From IMG/VR virus record IMGVR_UViG_3300048592_000278, positions 1 through 38,903 of that record: a stretch of DNA of 38,903 bases; one strand, given 5' to 3'. Under the pieces are notes generated by a model. The model worked only from the letters and a program-made list of their open reading frames with translations, had not been told where the DNA came from and ran no database searches. Origin of the DNA: a virus. Positions 1 through 38,903 of this stretch are shown piece after piece. The number at the start of each line of letters is the position of its first letter. The first letter of the stretch is position 1. A program made the translations under genes and the position numbers.

Positions 1-126
1 ATCAACTTCACATGGGAATTTGCAATTTAGCGGCTTGGTTGTGCCATCGGTGGCTAATTGACTTAAACTCGCCGCTCCGTCCCAATACCACATCCGACGG
101 GCTTTCCTTAAGACTATTTCTTGACC
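1..126. repeat. Terminal direct repeat, left copy (same as 38778-38903)
   Basis: Bases 1-126 equal bases 38778-38903 exactly. Joining the two ends restores a 372-base gene A (156 bases from 127-282 plus 216 bases from 38688-38903), the same length as the two intact copies, which supports a circular or terminally redundant genome. The same sequence also occurs inside the second gene A (about 687-812), so the overlap lies in an internally repeated gene and could equally be an assembler stopping in a repeat. Confidence 0.9.
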
Positions 127-282
127 GCTCCTACTCTCTACATAACCAGCGAAAACACCAGCGGAGTGAGTACGTACCATGCAGTATTCCATGCCGTCTA
201 ATTTGGCGGCTTGGTGGTTACTGTCTTTTCTCACATATTCAACATTGTTGATTGTGATTGTTTCAATTTTTTCTTGTTCCAT
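1..282 (-). CDS. Cassette protein A, copy 1 (5' part; rest at 38688-38903)
   Basis: This is the N-terminal part of the 123-residue protein A, cut by the window start. It begins at ATG (282-280) behind the same AAGGAG ribosome binding site as the other copies and reads MEQEKIETITINNVEYV. It differs from copies 2 and 3 in a few residues (K-L-D-G instead of K-F-N-G, and E-S-R-S instead of E-S-R-D), so it is a separate, slightly diverged copy. Its C-terminal part lies at the far end of the window and the join is in frame. I recall this family as DUF6948, a phage domain of unknown function; that name is from memory. The gene is driven by its own promoter at 324-354. Confidence 0.85.
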   Translation of the reverse strand, partial: MEQEKIETITINNVEYVRKDSNHQAAKLDGMEYCMVRTHSAGVFAGYVESRSGQEIVLRKARRMWYWDGAASLSQLATDGTTKPLNCKFPCEVD

Positions 283-323
283 TTCAAATCTCCTTTTTTT
301 AAAAATAAAAAATTAACTTAATA

Positions 324-354
324 CAAATATAATACATTTTTTTCATATATGCAA
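324..354 (-). promoter_or_regulatory. Bacteroidota-type promoter of cassette copy 1
   Basis: On the minus strand TTGC (354-351), 19 bases, then TATATTTG (331-324), matching the Bacteroidota consensus of TTTG and TAnnTTTG. The predicted start is about 35 bases before the AAGGAG and ATG of gene A copy 1. The block is repeated almost base for base at 1009-1039 and 1748-1778. Confidence 0.75.
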
Positions 355-362
355 ATTATTTT

Positions 363-602
363 TTAACCATAACCAGTACCAGAACCAGCACCATAACCAT
401 CACCATCACCAGAACCATCACCATAACCATAACCATAACCAGTACCATCATCATAACCATAACCAGTACCATCACCAGAACCATCACCAGAACCATCACC
501 AGAACCATCATCAGAACCAGAACCATAACCAGAACCAGTACCATCACCACAACCATGACCAGAACCAGTACCATAACCAGTACCATAACCGGAATTTACA
601 TT
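363..602. repeat. Hexanucleotide repeat coding for Gly-X dipeptides (copy 2)
   Basis: Nearly the whole of gene B copy 2 is made of 6-base units. On the coding strand each unit is GGT followed by NNT. Only the first two bases of the second codon vary, giving Tyr, Asp, Ser, Thr, Ala, His or Cys. Two places read GAT GAT and flip the phase of the dipeptide. Such short-period repeats expand and contract easily, and the three copies differ in length. Confidence 0.9.
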
Positions 603-608
603 TTCCAT
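363..608 (-). CDS. Cassette protein B, copy 2: glycine-dipeptide-repeat protein
   Basis: An 81-residue protein that starts M-E-N-V-N-S and is then almost pure Gly-X dipeptides with X = Tyr, Thr, Ser, Asp, His, Cys or Ala. There is no signal peptide or globular domain. Such a chain should be flexible and hydrophilic, with Tyr and Asp side chains exposed; a linker, adhesive or decoration role is possible but unproven. Its ATG lies inside the last codons of gene A (13-base overlap, one base back in frame) and it has no ribosome binding site of its own, so translation is probably coupled to gene A, or a frameshift could fuse A and B. From memory, A-like domains in other phages carry a similar Gly-rich tail in a single chain. 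Confidence 0.7.
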   Translation of the reverse strand: MENVNSGYGTGYGTGSGHGCGDGTGSGYGSGSDDGSGDGSGDGSGDGTGYGYDDGTGYGYGYGDGSGDGDGYGAGSGTGYG

Positions 609-967
609 ATCGGCACTCCCGAAATTGATTCTTTTGCCTTTTCTGTGATTGGTATAATTTCGATTACTTGCAACAATTCCACCCTATCAACTTCACATGG
701 GAATTTGCAATTTAGCGGCTTGGTTGTGCCATCGGTGGCTAATTGACTTAAACTCGCCGCTCCGTCCCAATACCACATCCGACGGGCTTTCCTTAAGACT
801 ATTTCTTGACCGTCCCTACTCTCTACATAACCAGCGAAAACACCAGCGGAGTGAGTACGTACCATGCAATATTCCATGCCGTTAAATTTAGCGGCTTGGT
901 GGTTACTGTCTTTTCTCACATATTCAACATTGTTGATTGTGATTGTTTCAATTTTTTCTTGTTCCAT
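596..967 (-). CDS. Cassette protein A, copy 2 (DUF6948-like phage protein)
   Basis: A 123-residue soluble protein with no signal peptide. It carries a conserved core around residues 35-75 (YCMVRTHSAGVFAG, then WYWDGAASLSQLA). I recall this core as the DUF6948 family of phages and prophages; the function is unknown. The start is ATG at 967 behind AAGGAGATTTGAA, the best ribosome binding site in the neighbourhood. It overlaps gene B by 13 bases and has its own promoter at 1009-1039. It differs from copy 3 at about five of 123 residues, all in the C-terminal half, so the copies are recent duplicates or are kept alike by recombination. Confidence 0.85.
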   Translation of the reverse strand: MEQEKIETITINNVEYVRKDSNHQAAKFNGMEYCMVRTHSAGVFAGYVESRDGQEIVLRKARRMWYWDGAASLSQLATDGTTKPLNCKFPCEVDRVELLQVIEIIPITEKAKESISGVPIWKM

Positions 968-1008
968 TTCAAATCTCCTTTTTTTAAAAATAAAAAATTA
1001 ACTTAATA

Positions 1009-1039
1009 CAAATATAATACATTTTTTTCATATATGCAA
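1009..1039 (-). promoter_or_regulatory. Bacteroidota-type promoter of cassette copy 2
   Basis: TTGC (1039-1036), 19 bases, TATATTTG (1016-1009) on the minus strand, identical in sequence and spacing to the promoter of copy 1. It sits directly after the stop codon of gene B copy 3, so each cassette carries its own promoter. Confidence 0.75.
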
Positions 1040-1047
1040 ATTATTTT

Positions 1048-1347
1048 TTAACCATAACCAGTACCAGAACCAGCACCATAACCATCACCGGAACCATAAC
1101 CATAACCATCACCGGAACCAGAACCATAACCATAACCATGACCATGACCAATGCCATAACCATAACCGGAACCAGAACCGGAACCAGAACCATCACCATA
1201 ACCAGTACCAGCACCATAACCAGCACCATAACCAGTACCATCACCATCACCAGAACCAGTACCATAACCACCACCATAGCCATCACCAGAACCATCACCA
1301 TAACCAGCACCATCACCACCACCATAGCCAAAATTTACATTTTCCAT
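1048..1347 (-). CDS. Cassette protein B, copy 3: glycine-dipeptide-repeat protein
   Basis: A 99-residue Gly-X dipeptide protein beginning M-E-N-V-N-F. It is the longest and most diverged B: the order of X residues differs from copies 1 and 2 from residue 6 on, although the gene A in front of it is about 96% identical in protein to copy 2. The codon pattern is again GGT-NNT throughout. It overlaps the end of gene A copy 3 by 13 bases. No fold or function can be assigned; expected to be disordered. Confidence 0.7.
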   Translation of the reverse strand: MENVNFGYGGGDGAGYGDGSGDGYGGGYGTGSGDGDGTGYGAGYGAGTGYGDGSGSGSGSGYGYGIGHGHGYGYGSGSGDGYGYGSGDGYGAGSGTGYG

Positions 1348-1706
1348 GTCGGCACTCCAGAGATTGATTCTTTTGCCTTCTCTGTTATTGGTATAATTTC
1401 GATTACTTGTAACAATTCCACCTTATCAACTTCACATGGGAATTTGCAATTTTGCGGCTTTAATGTGCCATCTGTGGCTAATTGACTTAAACTCGCCGCT
1501 CCGTCCCAATACCATATCCTACGGGCTTTTCTTAAGACTATTTCTTGACCGTCCCTGCTCTCTACATAACCAGCGAAAACACCAGCGGAGTGAGTACGTA
1601 CCATGCAATATTCCATGCCGTTAAATTTAGCGGCTTGGTGGTTACTGTCTTTTCTCACATATTCAACATTATTGATTGTGATTGTTTCAATTTTTTCTTG
1701 TTCCAT
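1335..1706 (-). CDS. Cassette protein A, copy 3 (DUF6948-like phage protein)
   Basis: A 123-residue protein nearly identical to copy 2, with changes such as M to I in the R-R-M-W-Y-W stretch, T to L and L to Q in the D-G-T-T-K-P-L-N stretch, and I to T in the terminal G-V-P-I-W-K-M. It starts at ATG 1706 behind AAGGAG and has its own promoter at 1748-1778, 20 bases past the stop of the methyltransferase gene. It is the first cassette in transcription order. Function unknown. Confidence 0.85.
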   Translation of the reverse strand: MEQEKIETITINNVEYVRKDSNHQAAKFNGMEYCMVRTHSAGVFAGYVESRDGQEIVLRKARRIWYWDGAASLSQLATDGTLKPQNCKFPCEVDKVELLQVIEIIPITEKAKESISGVPTWKM

Positions 1707-1747
1707 TTCAAATCTCCTTTTTTTAAAAATAAAAAATTAACTTAATA

Positions 1748-1778
1748 CAAATATAATACATTTTTTTGATATATGCAA
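1748..1778 (-). promoter_or_regulatory. Bacteroidota-type promoter of cassette copy 3
   Basis: TTGC (1778-1775), 19 bases, TATATTTG (1755-1748) on the minus strand. It begins within a few bases of the methyltransferase stop codon (1780-1782). Similarity with the other cassette promoters runs right up to this stop codon, which marks the outer edge of the duplicated unit. Confidence 0.75.
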
Positions 1779-10272: not shown

Positions 10273-10965
10273 TTAATCCCTTTCAATTCTATTTGATTTT
10301 TTTAAATTATAATTATAAGCATTACTTAGCATGATAAAGTAATCTTCAGACGAAAAACATTTAAAAAGTTTACTTCTTAATTTTGGCAAGCGTTCCATAA
10401 ACAATTTATGGTCATAATTCGGGTGTGCAATGAGGCTTTTAAATCCTTCAGCGAATCTTTGCTCATGTGAAAACTCCATAAATCCACGCACATCATAATA
10501 TATTCGCAAAATATCTTGAGCGTTGTTCAATAATTTCATTCTTCCCTTTGCAAAACCGGCTCCCTTCGTTGACAAACAAATCAAAGATTGCAGAACCGCG
10601 ATGTTCATACCTGAGTTTTGATATATGTTTTTAAAAATTGCATAATCCATATTGTCTTTTGCGTAGTAATCTAAATAGTCAACCGACCTCCATTTTGTCG
10701 AACTATTGTTTAATGTAATAATTGCATCATCCTGCACGTCTATTATTTGATAAGTAATCGGTAAATTGTTGCGTTTGCAAAACTCTAATCTATTATGACC
10801 ATCTATAATAGTCATATCTCGAGTTACTTCGATTGTTTTAATATAGTTCGTTTTTGAGTAACCTTCAGCAATTTTTCTAACTGCTAACTCGGTCTGCCTG
10901 CAACCGCTTTGATATTTGTTCTTTTTGAACATATCATAATTTCTCGTTTCAAATACTTGAATCAT
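10273..10965 (-). CDS. ParB-like N-terminal-domain protein
   Basis: A 230-residue protein. The stretch M-T-I-I-D-G-H-N-R-L-E (52-61) is the G-H-x-R motif of ParB/Srx nucleotide-binding domains, preceded by a strand containing I-K-T-I-E-V-T-R. The rest is helical and not a typical ParB DNA-binding domain. Phage ParB-like proteins are thought to act as CTP-dependent clamps, nucleases or regulators; which applies here is unknown. It is the first gene after the promoter at 11000-11031 and has GGGAGATTT before its ATG. Confidence 0.75.
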   Translation of the reverse strand: MIQVFETRNYDMFKKNKYQSGCRQTELAVRKIAEGYSKTNYIKTIEVTRDMTIIDGHNRLEFCKRNNLPITYQIIDVQDDAIITLNNSSTKWRSVDYLDYYAKDNMDYAIFKNIYQNSGMNIAVLQSLICLSTKGAGFAKGRMKLLNNAQDILRIYYDVRGFMEFSHEQRFAEGFKSLIAHPNYDHKLFMERLPKLRSKLFKCFSSEDYFIMLSNAYNYNLKKSNRIERD

Positions 10966-10999
10966 TTTAAATCTCCCATAATGTTTAAAAAACTTTTTA

Positions 11000-12012: not shown

Positions 12013-12909
12013 TCATAATGCCTCCATTTCATAAACTACTTCCGCCTTTTTACCTTGATGTAAACGCCACGTCCTGCCGTCAAAAGATGGGATAAATCCG
12101 TCATTCCATAAATCTATACAACTCTGAAAAGGATTTATTCCTTCTTCATGGTCTACATATTCCCACTTTGTGATATTAGGGAAGACGCTACTTATATAAG
12201 CCCAGACGGAAGCCCCGACAGAATCCCCGACGGGAACCACGACGGAAGCCCAGACGGAATCCCCGACGGGAGCCCTGACGGAATCAATGACGGGTGCCCA
12301 GACGGAAGACCCGATGGAATCCCAGACGGAAGCCCAGACGGAAGCCCCGACAGAATCCCCGACGAAAGACCCGATGGAAGCCACGACGGAATCCCTGACG
12401 GAATCCCCGACGAAAGACCCGATGAAAGACCCGATGGAATCCCAGACGGAAGCCCAGACGGAATCCCCGACGAAAGACCCGATGGAAGCCACGACGGAAT
12501 CCCATTCTTTTAACAAATCTTTATGCTTTTGTGTTAATCTCTTTTTAGGTAATAATAACGGGTTAACTGGCTTAATAACCATGCTAAGATTATAACCAAG
12601 TTCTTTGTCTAAAGGTTTGCATAATTCATACAATTCGTCTTGACTGACTTCCCTAATCAGTTTAATGTATTCAAAACGGTGTTTGTAAATGTCAAACCTC
12701 TTTTCATTACCCCAACACTCACATTCAAATACTCTTTTGTCAGTTCTGTAAGCATAAGATAATCCTTCTAAAGTAGTTGCGTAATAACCTCGTGAACATT
12801 CCTTCTCAGATGTATCAAAATCTTTGCAATGATACTCAACGCCTATCTCGTACGGCATATCTTGATATGGACTGACCATATCTTTATTTAATACTTTATA
12901 CATTTTCAT
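12013..12909 (-). CDS. Phage protein with 25 tandem tetrapeptide repeats
   Basis: A 298-residue protein in three parts. Residues 1-130 are a conserved phage domain (K-V-L-N-K-D-M, then S-R-G-Y-Y-A-T-T-L) that I recall from DUF7666-type proteins. Residues about 137-236 are 25 tetrapeptides of the form D/A-S-V/I-W/G/V/R. Residues 237-298 form a globular tail (F-D-G-R-T-W-R-L-H). The repeats could form a beta-solenoid. Ser at position 2 and a branched aliphatic residue at position 3 are nearly invariant. Similar repeat proteins occur in many uncultured phages; function unknown. Start ATG 12909 overlaps the upstream stop. Confidence 0.8.
   Translation of the reverse strand: MKMYKVLNKDMVSPYQDMPYEIGVEYHCKDFDTSEKECSRGYYATTLEGLSYAYRTDKRVFECECWGNEKRFDIYKHRFEYIKLIREVSQDELYELCKPLDKELGYNLSMVIKPVNPLLLPKKRLTQKHKDLLKEWDSVVASIGSFVGDSVWASVWDSIGSFIGSFVGDSVRDSVVASIGSFVGDSVGASVWASVWDSIGSSVWAPVIDSVRAPVGDSVWASVVVPVGDSVGASVWAYISSVFPNITKWEYVDHEEGINPFQSCIDLWNDGFIPSFDGRTWRLHQGKKAEVVYEMEAL
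12201..12500. repeat. 25 tandem 12-base units
   Basis: Exactly 300 bases made of 25 twelve-base units of the type CCCAGACGGAAG or CCCCGACGAAAG, all in register. Groups of units are repeated again as blocks (units 14-16 equal units 23-25; units 20-21 match units 10-11), showing expansion by unequal exchange or slippage. The GC content is far above the rest of the window. Confidence 0.93.
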
Positions 12910-31916: not shown

Positions 31917-32906
31917 TTACAATATCCCTACTATATTATTAGTTGCCGCTCCAGTTGAATATGTTACCACTAATTTGGGGTCTTCTGTCGTGCCTGTCCT
32001 ATCGGCTGAATAACCGCCACATTGTATTGACTTGGAAGCCGACCACGTGCCGGCAGTGTTATCAAATACAGCCCCTGCCTTCCCTCCAAATTTTGATATA
32101 CCTGTTTTATTTATGTTAGCTATACCAGATGAATTCAAAGTGAAAGCATTATATTGATTAATTGTCATTGCCGATATTGCTAACCTACAAAACTCTGTCG
32201 TGCCTAATGTTAAACAATCAGCTGATACAACGGCTGTATTACTTGCGGGGTTTGAACTAACAACAACTGCGCTCGCTAATGTTGAACTCCAGCTTAATGT
32301 ATTATTTGCGCTTAAAACATAAAAATCAAATTCCGCGGCACTTATTGTCGCGTCGTCAGGTATTGAAGACGTATCAAATAACATAACTCCACCCAAATTA
32401 TTTTCATATTGATTTGAAGTACTCGAGGAGCTAAGTAAACCTAAATTAAAACTCGCCGCCGAGTCTGTGGCGAAATTATAACTATTAAAAGATACCGTAT
32501 TCGAGAACGTTTGATTTACACCTAATATACCACACTGACCGTCCACCGTACTCGTTTCAACGTGGGGGTCGGGGTAAACTGTTAAGGTATCAAAGCCGAA
32601 ATTTAGATTAAGCTCCAAACGATTAAAAATATAAATGTCAATAGAATGCAATAAATACCAAAATGGATACAAGCTATAATACAAGCGTTTTGAGAATTTA
32701 TTGTGTGTCCTGAATTCTGCTCGTGTTCGTGATATATCAAGTTTTACCTCGTAATAATTTGGCATTAATTTTGAAATTTTTTCACTAAATTTTAAATCTT
32801 TATGTATTCTTAAAATCCACCTGAACCAATATTTAAGAATCCAATTATTACATAAAAATAATAATACTTTTTGACGTTCTTTAAACCATGATTTATCAAA
32901 TACCAT
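31917..32906 (-). CDS. Virion protein with C-terminal DNRLRE-like domain
   Basis: About 329 residues from ATG 32906, which overlaps the previous stop (TAATG). The N-terminal 110 residues are basic and aromatic (K-S-W-F-K-E-R-Q, W-I-L-K-Y-W-F-R-W-I-L-R), ending F-G-F-D-T-L-T-V-Y-P-D. This N-terminal block is one I have seen in other phage structural proteins. The rest is beta-rich with L-F-D-T-S-S-I-P-D-D-A-T-I-S-A-A-E-F, typical of DNRLRE / carbohydrate-binding-like modules. Likely fibre or spike. Confidence 0.65.
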   Translation of the reverse strand: MVFDKSWFKERQKVLLFLCNNWILKYWFRWILRIHKDLKFSEKISKLMPNYYEVKLDISRTRAEFRTHNKFSKRLYYSLYPFWYLLHSIDIYIFNRLELNLNFGFDTLTVYPDPHVETSTVDGQCGILGVNQTFSNTVSFNSYNFATDSAASFNLGLLSSSSTSNQYENNLGGVMLFDTSSIPDDATISAAEFDFYVLSANNTLSWSSTLASAVVVSSNPASNTAVVSADCLTLGTTEFCRLAISAMTINQYNAFTLNSSGIANINKTGISKFGGKAGAVFDNTAGTWSASKSIQCGGYSADRTGTTEDPKLVVTYSTGAATNNIVGIL

Positions 32907-37552: not shown

Positions 37553-38065
37553 TTAGGAGATTTCATGGTCAGCCGCCCCTGTAAAATGAATAAATCCTAA
37601 TAATCTTAGTGTTTTTGTATCTTTTAATGTTCTTGTTTTTTCTGCTACGATATACCCTTCTCTTCCTCCTTTGTCATTAGTATTGCCTTCTATGCTCTTG
37701 AATCCCTTATCGTCAAAAGTAGTAACTATTCCGATATGCCCTTGATTCGAGTTCTTTGTTGACTGCCAAACTACTAAATCGCCTTCACTTGGAAAGTTAG
37801 ATATTTCAAATTCAAACAAACCGCTTTTTCCAAAGTTTTTCCACGTTAATTGAGTACTCGCTGACATTAGTTTATTGATTTTTTTGTCAAGTTCTGGCAG
37901 TGCTTCTCTATATACCAATTCAACAAAGTAGTTACACCATGCCTGCCCTTTTTGGAATCCTACTAATTTCATTTTCTTTTCAAATTCAGAATCTTTGAAC
38001 CCCGAGTTATTGGGCTTTTCCATTTGTCCGATATATTTACGGGCTGTCTCTACTATTTTATTCAT
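37553..38065 (-). CDS. CHAP-type peptidoglycan hydrolase (endolysin)
   Basis: A 170-residue Cys-His hydrolase. C44 in Q-A-W-C-N-Y-F-V is the nucleophile, H110 in Q-G-H-I-G-I-V the general base, and E-G-N-T-N-D (about 125-130) supplies the third residue. The first 30 residues (A-R-K-Y-I-G-Q-M-E-K-P-N-N-S-G) match the TIGR02594-type phage family. It cleaves peptide or amide bonds of peptidoglycan. No signal peptide, so a holin or other membrane break is needed. It overlaps the preceding gene as ATGA. Two different muralytic enzymes in one operon are noteworthy. Confidence 0.88.
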   Translation of the reverse strand: MNKIVETARKYIGQMEKPNNSGFKDSEFEKKMKLVGFQKGQAWCNYFVELVYREALPELDKKINKLMSASTQLTWKNFGKSGLFEFEISNFPSEGDLVVWQSTKNSNQGHIGIVTTFDDKGFKSIEGNTNDKGGREGYIVAEKTRTLKDTKTLRLLGFIHFTGAADHEIS

Positions 38066-38456: not shown

Positions 38457-38488
38457 CAAATATAATAAATATATTTCGTTTTTGCAAA
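38457..38488 (-). promoter_or_regulatory. Bacteroidota-type promoter of the lysis operon
   Basis: TTTG (38488-38485), 20 bases, TATATTTG (38464-38457) on the minus strand, right after the stop codon of gene B copy 1. It differs from the cassette promoters in the spacer. Confidence 0.77.
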
Positions 38489-38496
38489 TTTATTTT

Positions 38497-38700
38497 TTAA
38501 CCATAACCATCACCTAAACCATAACCATAACCAGTACCATCATCATAACCATAACCAGTACCATCACCAGAACCATCACCAGAACCATAACCAGAACCAT
38601 CATCAGAACCAGAACCATAACCAGAACCAGTACCATCACCACAACCATGACCAGAACCAGTACCATAACCAGTACCATAACCGGAATTTACATTTTCCAT
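38497..38700 (-). CDS. Cassette protein B, copy 1: glycine-dipeptide-repeat protein
   Basis: A 67-residue Gly-X dipeptide protein, the shortest of the three. Its first 37 residues equal those of copy 2, then it differs by point changes and lacks the last repeats of copy 2 before a G-L-G-D-G-Y-G end. All Gly codons are GGT and all X codons end in T. It overlaps the end of gene A copy 1 by 13 bases. Its stop stands eight bases above the lysis promoter. Confidence 0.7.
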   Translation of the reverse strand: MENVNSGYGTGYGTGSGHGCGDGTGSGYGSGSDDGSGYGSGDGSGDGTGYGYDDGTGYGYGLGDGYG

Positions 38701-38903
38701 ATCGGCACTCCCGAAATTGATTCTTTTGCCTTTTCTGTGATTGGTATAATTTCGATTACTTGCAACAATTCCACCCTATCAACTTCACATGGGAATTTGC
38801 AATTTAGCGGCTTGGTTGTGCCATCGGTGGCTAATTGACTTAAACTCGCCGCTCCGTCCCAATACCACATCCGACGGGCTTTCCTTAAGACTATTTCTTG
38901 ACC
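38688..38903 (-). CDS. Cassette protein A, copy 1 (3' part; start at 127-282)
   Basis: The last 71 codons and stop of protein A, running off the window end (R-R-M-W-Y-W-D-G-A-A-S-L through G-V-P-I-W-K-M). All 216 bases equal the matching part of copy 2. With the 5' part at the window start it makes a complete 123-residue gene. Confidence 0.85.
   Translation of the reverse strand, partial: GQEIVLRKARRMWYWDGAASLSQLATDGTTKPLNCKFPCEVDRVELLQVIEIIPITEKAKESISGVPIWKM
38778..38903. repeat. Terminal direct repeat, right copy (same as 1-126)
   Basis: Exact match to the first 126 bases, inside gene A copy 1. See the left copy for the two readings: circular closure or an assembly break in a repeat. Confidence 0.9.

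Follow-up and report, generated by a model that had tools for sequence, protein, structure and literature searches.

A tandem promoter-A-B array in a virus contig and a widespread phage gene pair that joins a DUF6948 protein of predicted Sm-like fold to a fast-changing Gly-X repeat protein

The closest described systems to the gene pair reported here, which we call A and B, are Hfq proteins with glycine-rich or acidic tails. In Acinetobacter baumannii Hfq, glycine-rich GGFGGQ repeats alter RNA binding (PMC11617691), and in E. coli Hfq the acidic tip of the tail tunes RNA affinity and release (PMC5606850). Like these proteins, the pair combines a core predicted to belong to the Sm-fold class with a low-complexity, predicted disordered part, an arrangement whose effect on RNA handling is known for Hfq. 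Unlike the Hfq tail, B has a gene of its own, translationally coupled to that of A, and strictly alternates glycine with a second residue (Gly-X); A is not recognizably Hfq by sequence, lacks the canonical Sm RNA-site residues, and belongs to a viral module whose B member changes fast. With the Sm/LSm and archaeal SmAP proteins A shares a predicted small barrel (beta1–beta3, loop 4, beta4–beta5), but it departs from them in an enlarged, conserved loop 4 (ARRIWYWDGAASLSQLA) and the lack of a loop-5 Arg-Gly, and the profile comparison with them does not clearly exceed shuffled controls. PDB 3by7, a Sm/LSm-like protein of uncultured origin, likewise has the Sm-type fold (Z 6.5 to A), although sequence searches with A do not recover it. 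We take 3by7 to be cyanophage-derived. At the family level, A is a clear member of DUF6948 (PF22253, E 2e-32), as an earlier, sequence-only reading of this DNA had proposed; the family has no function assigned to it, and its pairing with a Gly-X gene is an addition to the picture of that family.

The window analysed here is a whole virus contig of 38,903 nt. It contains three promoter-A-B cassettes, all on the minus strand, where they follow one another in the order cassette 3 (1778–1048), cassette 2 (1039–363), and cassette 1 (354 across the record ends to 38497). Their features are as follows.

1748–1778, minus strand: promoter of cassette 3, TTG-N20-TATATTTG
1335–1706, minus strand: A gene copy 3 (123 aa; DUF6948, PF22253 E 5.8e-33; Sm-like fold predicted with AlphaFold2 and Foldseek)
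1048–1347, minus strand: B gene copy 3 (Gly-X repeat, 99 aa), its start codon within the A stop region
1009–1039, minus strand: promoter of cassette 2
596–967, minus strand: A gene copy 2 (DUF6948; PF22253 E 2e-32), a mosaic of copies 3 and 1
363–608, minus strand: B gene copy 2 (Gly-X repeat, 81 aa)
324–354, minus strand: promoter of cassette 1
1–282, minus strand: A gene copy 1, 5' part, continuing at 38777 across the record ends
38688–38777, minus strand: A gene copy 1, 3' part (38778–38903 repeats 1–126)
38497–38700, minus strand: B gene copy 1 (Gly-X repeat, 67 aa)
38778–38903, no strand: terminal overlap identical to 1–126, inside a 314-nt stretch common to copies 1 and 2 (38590–38903 = 498–811)

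The record begins and ends with the same 126 nt, which implies a circle of 38,777 bp; once one overlap is removed, the split A gene of copy 1 comprises exactly 123 codons and a stop. The sequence-only reading had given unit 1 as 38497–38903 plus 1–354, which counts these 126 nt twice; the true unit is 38497–38777 joined to 1–354. Both record ends fall inside the 314-nt stretch exactly common to copies 1 and 2 and break off at the point of divergence between them, a position that looks like a de Bruijn graph junction of the kind a short-read assembler leaves at an unresolved branch. Because the path from copy 1 through the 81-residue B gene to the shared stretch forms a loop that could be repeated any number of times, three cassettes is a minimum, and the earlier count of at least three stands with this qualification and the corrected coordinates. 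The rest of its description of the array held up: each unit has a near-identical promoter and ribosome binding site (blocks of about 80 nt identical save 1 nt), the A copies differ at 3–8 of 123 residues (97.6% to 93.5% identity), the B genes are unequal in length (67, 81, and 99 aa), and the array adjoins the lysis operon, with a small ORF downstream followed by a CHAP endolysin gene (37553–38065). Genes upstream of the array resemble DNA methyltransferases (DPPY motifs, by eye), and an Rfam search found no known RNA in the window.

Blocks of 300 nt recur across the copies at 95–98% identity, which excludes chance as the source of the repeats. Alignment of the copies shows a mosaic copy 2, with 5' and 3' ends that resemble copy 3 and a middle that resembles copy 1, a sign of recombination that agrees with the earlier proposal of paralogues altered in this way; dosage amplification is a possible reason for the copies. 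The suggestion that A and B are surface or decoy molecules found no support, as A has a predicted Sm/LSm fold and the pair lies elsewhere among recombination and replication genes; by-eye inspection revealed no evident signal sequence. Every cassette opens with TTG-N20-TATATTTG, a promoter of Bacteroidota type, and sites of this type number 11 on the minus (coding) strand versus 2.1 in shuffles. Other promoter-like sites of the form TTG-N20-TAnnTTTG occur on the minus strand of the window at 38487, 35890, 15509, 13530, 13253, and 11030, mostly ahead of genes.

Turning to protein A, matches to PF22253 reach 111.6 and 113.3 bits against a curated cut-off of 27 bits, and the profile matches all 74 of the 74 aligned relatives. 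An AlphaFold2 model built with these relatives (pLDDT 92.5, pTM 0.81) comprises beta1–3 (31–64), a long loop 4 with a helix, beta4–5 (93–106), and a further helix; the strongly bent five-stranded barrel of the Sm fold is present in A at the level of this predicted model only. All 50 matches listed in a Foldseek search of the PDB were Sm/LSm proteins (E 7e-3 to 4e-2, probability about 1). Similarly, all 50 rows listed by VIA-align were Sm/LSm-like, with Z scores of 6.1–7.0 and rmsd from 1.6 Å; Z scores below 8 can mean merely a common small-barrel arrangement, and the homogeneity of the match list is the stronger argument. Among these matches was PDB 3by7, titled as similar to Sm/LSm-like RNA-binding proteins.

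At the level of sequence, support for Sm homology is weak. A few A members have weak matches to Sm-type Pfam families (LSM14, 2.6e-4, one member; SM-ATX, 0.014; LSM, 0.018), and hhalign placed A in the Sm1 register of three archaeal SmAPs at E 0.02–0.11, with 6 of 100 column-shuffled controls scoring as high. PDB sequence searches with A, using single sequence and profile, returned only chance matches, for example to viral fusion glycoproteins; no Hfq model was listed for A members, and A against one Hfq sequence gave E 0.2. In the consensus of 74 sequences, compared by eye with archaeal SmAPs, the Arg-Gly of Sm2 (loop 5) and the Met-Asn of Sm1 involved in uridine binding are absent, and the canonical RNA-site places read VxLTxVIEII and GxEVxL. 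The most conserved block of A is instead the enlarged loop 4 (RRIWYWDGAASLSQLA; ARRIWYWDGAASLSQLA). The protein is not basic, with a median net charge of +1 and −1 for the window copy. We therefore describe A as Sm-like by predicted fold, not as a proven Sm homologue.

Protein B consists of Gly-X dipeptide repeats behind a short constant N-terminal tag. Across the 104 loci with a scripted B ORF (see below), X is Ser in 38%, Tyr in 28%, and Asp in 23% of cases, and the Gly-X region is acidic, with a median net charge of −7.5; in the one B protein modelled, this region is predicted to be disordered (pLDDT about 27). Within a single B gene the commonest glycine codon accounts for a median of 95% of glycine codons, whereas between phages the dominant codon may be GGC, GGT, GGG, or GGA, and serine is encoded by TCN or AGC. 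Uniform codons within genes and different codons between phages point to homogenization at the DNA level within each array and to selection at the protein level between phages. A diversity-generating retroelement was considered, since the X residues resemble variable-residue sets, and was set aside because within-gene codon uniformity better fits repeat gain and loss. Assignment of B to TrAA12 or similar families was also rejected, the weak Pfam matches being chance effects of low complexity.

Two further observations concern repeat proteins and B itself. The window encodes a second repeat protein at 12013–12909 (minus strand), in which a DUF7666 N-terminal domain precedes numerous tetrapeptide repeats of the SV[WG][DA] type, which correspond to a 12/60-nt tandem repeat in the DNA, and a C-terminal part. 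In gut-type phages, B carries a conserved C-terminal domain of about 150 aa with the motif WHHxLTGSC (L069:10567–11025, L077, L103, and about 20 other loci); this domain, modelled at a pLDDT of about 93, matched neither a PDB fold nor a Pfam family.

The pair extends far beyond the window phage. We surveyed 112 A loci, 80 from viral contigs, 28 from genome contigs, and 4 from phage records, and a script detected a Gly-X ORF at the 3' end of A in 104. Among the eight negative loci, six (L034, L057, L083, L089, L100, and L108) show Gly-X or a B-like start by eye, some being cut by the contig end; of the other two, L065 has a non-repeat ORF and L116 is truncated. Fourteen of 15 further A loci, mostly more distant, also carry B, two of them (L139 and L142) being re-fetches of loci already counted. 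Overall, about 124 of 127 A loci from phages, prophages, and isolates have a Gly-X gene at the 3' end, a count that takes in some near-identical contigs, so that the loci are not all independent. B is a separate overlapping ORF, not fused to A: in 75 of 104 loci the B start overlaps the A stop, always at an identical offset, and SD-like motifs precede the B start in 40 of 104 loci (38%) versus 10% at control positions. A fused form may occur elsewhere, as profile phrog_18306 matches both the Gly-X stretch and DUF6948. In Iodobacter phage PhiPLPE, a complete Gly-X B gene (L085:1173–1409) overlaps the end of phiPLPE_84 and is unannotated in the GenBank record. In another locus (L048; record G042, 32634–32888), five in-frame TGA codons in the DUF6948 frame suggest that the phage reads TGA as tryptophan. 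Downstream of A and B in L051, at about 10564–10980, lies an ORF with MGEGAS/MGKGAS hexapeptide repeats, possibly a left-handed beta-helix.

Comparison of close relatives identifies A as the conserved and B as the fast-changing member of the pair. Between the cultured Pectobacterium phages Ymer and Amona, A is identical, as are flanks of 1.1 kb upstream and 0.6 kb downstream, whereas B measures 73 versus 67 aa and differs in order. Koroua and Ymer likewise have identical flanks and very different B genes, the A-B region being the second most different 500-nt bin, not the first, across their whole genomes. In L042 and L043, flanks 99.9% identical on both sides enclose B genes that differ by 96 nt (32 aa). 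Length differences between close copies, those of the window included, are even numbers of residues, so that the Gly-X phase is kept.

B is also multiplied in at least nine other loci, which carry from two to five or more B genes each. Two B genes, the second with the same N-terminal tag, are found in L006, L012, L038, and L039, a B-A-B arrangement in L014 and L028, and three B genes in L022; two related phage contigs of about 95 kb carry at least four or five B genes after a single A (L046:12517–13745 and L047:10359–13350). A itself was single in all 26 other A-positive virus records searched whole and in 11 of 12 host genomes, the twelfth having two on different contigs. The window is thus the extreme case of a general tendency of B to multiply, and the only case seen in which A is tandemly multiplied. 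Such arrays are probably under-counted in short-read data, because contig ends fall in the first 400 nt beyond A in 13 of 80 cases versus 1.6 expected. A search through terminase and endolysin yielded only distant relatives of the window phage (terminase 24–30% and endolysin 54–56% identical); A was absent from all 13 tested, which left no copy-number comparison at the locus.

Recurrent neighbours of the pair in other phages include genes for VRR-NUC, integrase, S24 repressor, YqaJ, RecT, PD-(D/E)XK nuclease, SSB, and DUF669; tail genes do not figure among those recurrent neighbours to which an identity could be given. Ymer-group phages encode the pair on the same strand as SSB, Erf, and exonuclease VIII, adjoining a tail fibre gene on the opposite strand. 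This recombination and replication neighbourhood points to a role that is intracellular and probably early. Sampling of about 400 genomes in each of two phyla found only two with A in each, seed genomes included; this rarity marks A as a phage gene, not a host family.

The anatomy of the module, namely its cassettes, pairing, coupling geometry, and B turnover, is well supported. For its function we favour, tentatively and at less than an even chance, a model in which a Sm-like A binds nucleic acid and carries a docked, acidic, glycine-rich B tail, amplified in the window phage by recombination. A would form a ring-like oligomer and bind nucleic acid, most likely RNA, in early or middle infection. 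Translationally coupled B would dock on A through its N-terminal tag, a candidate docking site because B duplicates lying clear of A still carry it; B could also act alone. As a multivalent acidic tail, B may tune or release nucleic acid or gather particles, acting in trans as the glycine-rich or acidic C-terminal tail of some Hfq proteins acts in cis. Its arrays change rapidly in length as repeats are gained and lost, and in the window phage unequal recombination has probably raised the number of complete promoter-A-B units to three or more, which would supply more protein and more than one version of B. A more speculative extension, which we regard as doubtful, is that a Sm-fold ring protein and a rapidly re-assorting Gly-X protein build RNA- or DNA-containing condensates, with repeat number as an evolvable dial.

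Since A is neither basic nor equipped with the canonical uridine site, a role outside RNA binding is a serious rival. Possibly, though with clearly less than an even chance, A is a small-barrel scaffold or adaptor and B a multivalent sticky chain that binds proteins of the host or the phage, perhaps blocking a defence or a host enzyme, its variation reflecting an arms race. The concentration of conservation in loop 4 and not at the canonical Sm RNA site would fit this, as would a B protein that is enriched in Tyr, Ser, and Asp, changes faster than the sequence around it, and occurs in multiple copies in several phages. The early gene neighbourhoods of the pair are compatible as well, early phage regions also housing anti-defence genes; however, the pair is not known to have a defence partner or target, and B variation could arise without selection, simply from the gain and loss of repeats. 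We consider it unlikely that B serves as a structural chain, silk-like or condensate-forming, and assembles inside the cell around A and nucleic acid. The alternation of Gly-X with Tyr is silk-like and of low complexity, the region is predicted to be disordered in the one B protein modelled, and SS, YY, and DD are depleted among neighbouring X residues, but this support is all compositional, and short arrays occur (5th percentile 21 residues, in part through contig-end cuts).

A role in the virion, with A as a chaperone and B as a hypervariable tail adhesin comparable to the gp38-type polyglycine adhesins, appears highly improbable. B is glycine-rich and variable, and the Ymer-group pair does adjoin a tail fibre gene; yet that pair is encoded with the SSB, Erf, and exonuclease genes on the strand opposite the fibre, and the tail-block setting of gp38-type adhesins is not found among the identified recurrent neighbours. 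The polyglycine-II motif has a period of three, which the Gly-X period of two does not match. There is, finally, a rather small chance that the three copies reflect neutral dosage noise or, in part, an artefact of assembly, and that no special function attaches to the array. The record does end inside a repeat, leaving copy number ambiguous, and B regions break assemblies, as the excess of contig ends indicates; however, the three B genes differ from one another in both length and sequence and cannot all derive from one duplicated path, and the nine other loci carry extra B copies.

The A-B pair is widespread in unrelated phages and apparently undescribed in the literature searched: text searches, in which most subscription journals fall outside coverage, found no paper naming DUF6948 and nothing relevant for Gly-X strings. 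That B is sometimes unannotated, as in PhiPLPE, and breaks assemblies helps to explain why the pair has been overlooked. The module of Sm-like fold and Gly-X repeats outweighs the tandem array itself in interest, and the repeated convergence of B arrays on Gly-X (Ser/Tyr/Asp) from different codons is an unusual evolutionary observation. Bacteroidota are described as being without classical sRNA chaperones (PMC11697453). If the model is true, many unrelated phages, Bacteroidota phages included, would bring a Sm-like protein of their own, fitted with a detachable low-complexity tail. Two questions would then become testable: by what means phages handle RNA, or a nucleic-acid body, during infection, and how glycine-rich tails serve Sm proteins once uncoupled from the core.
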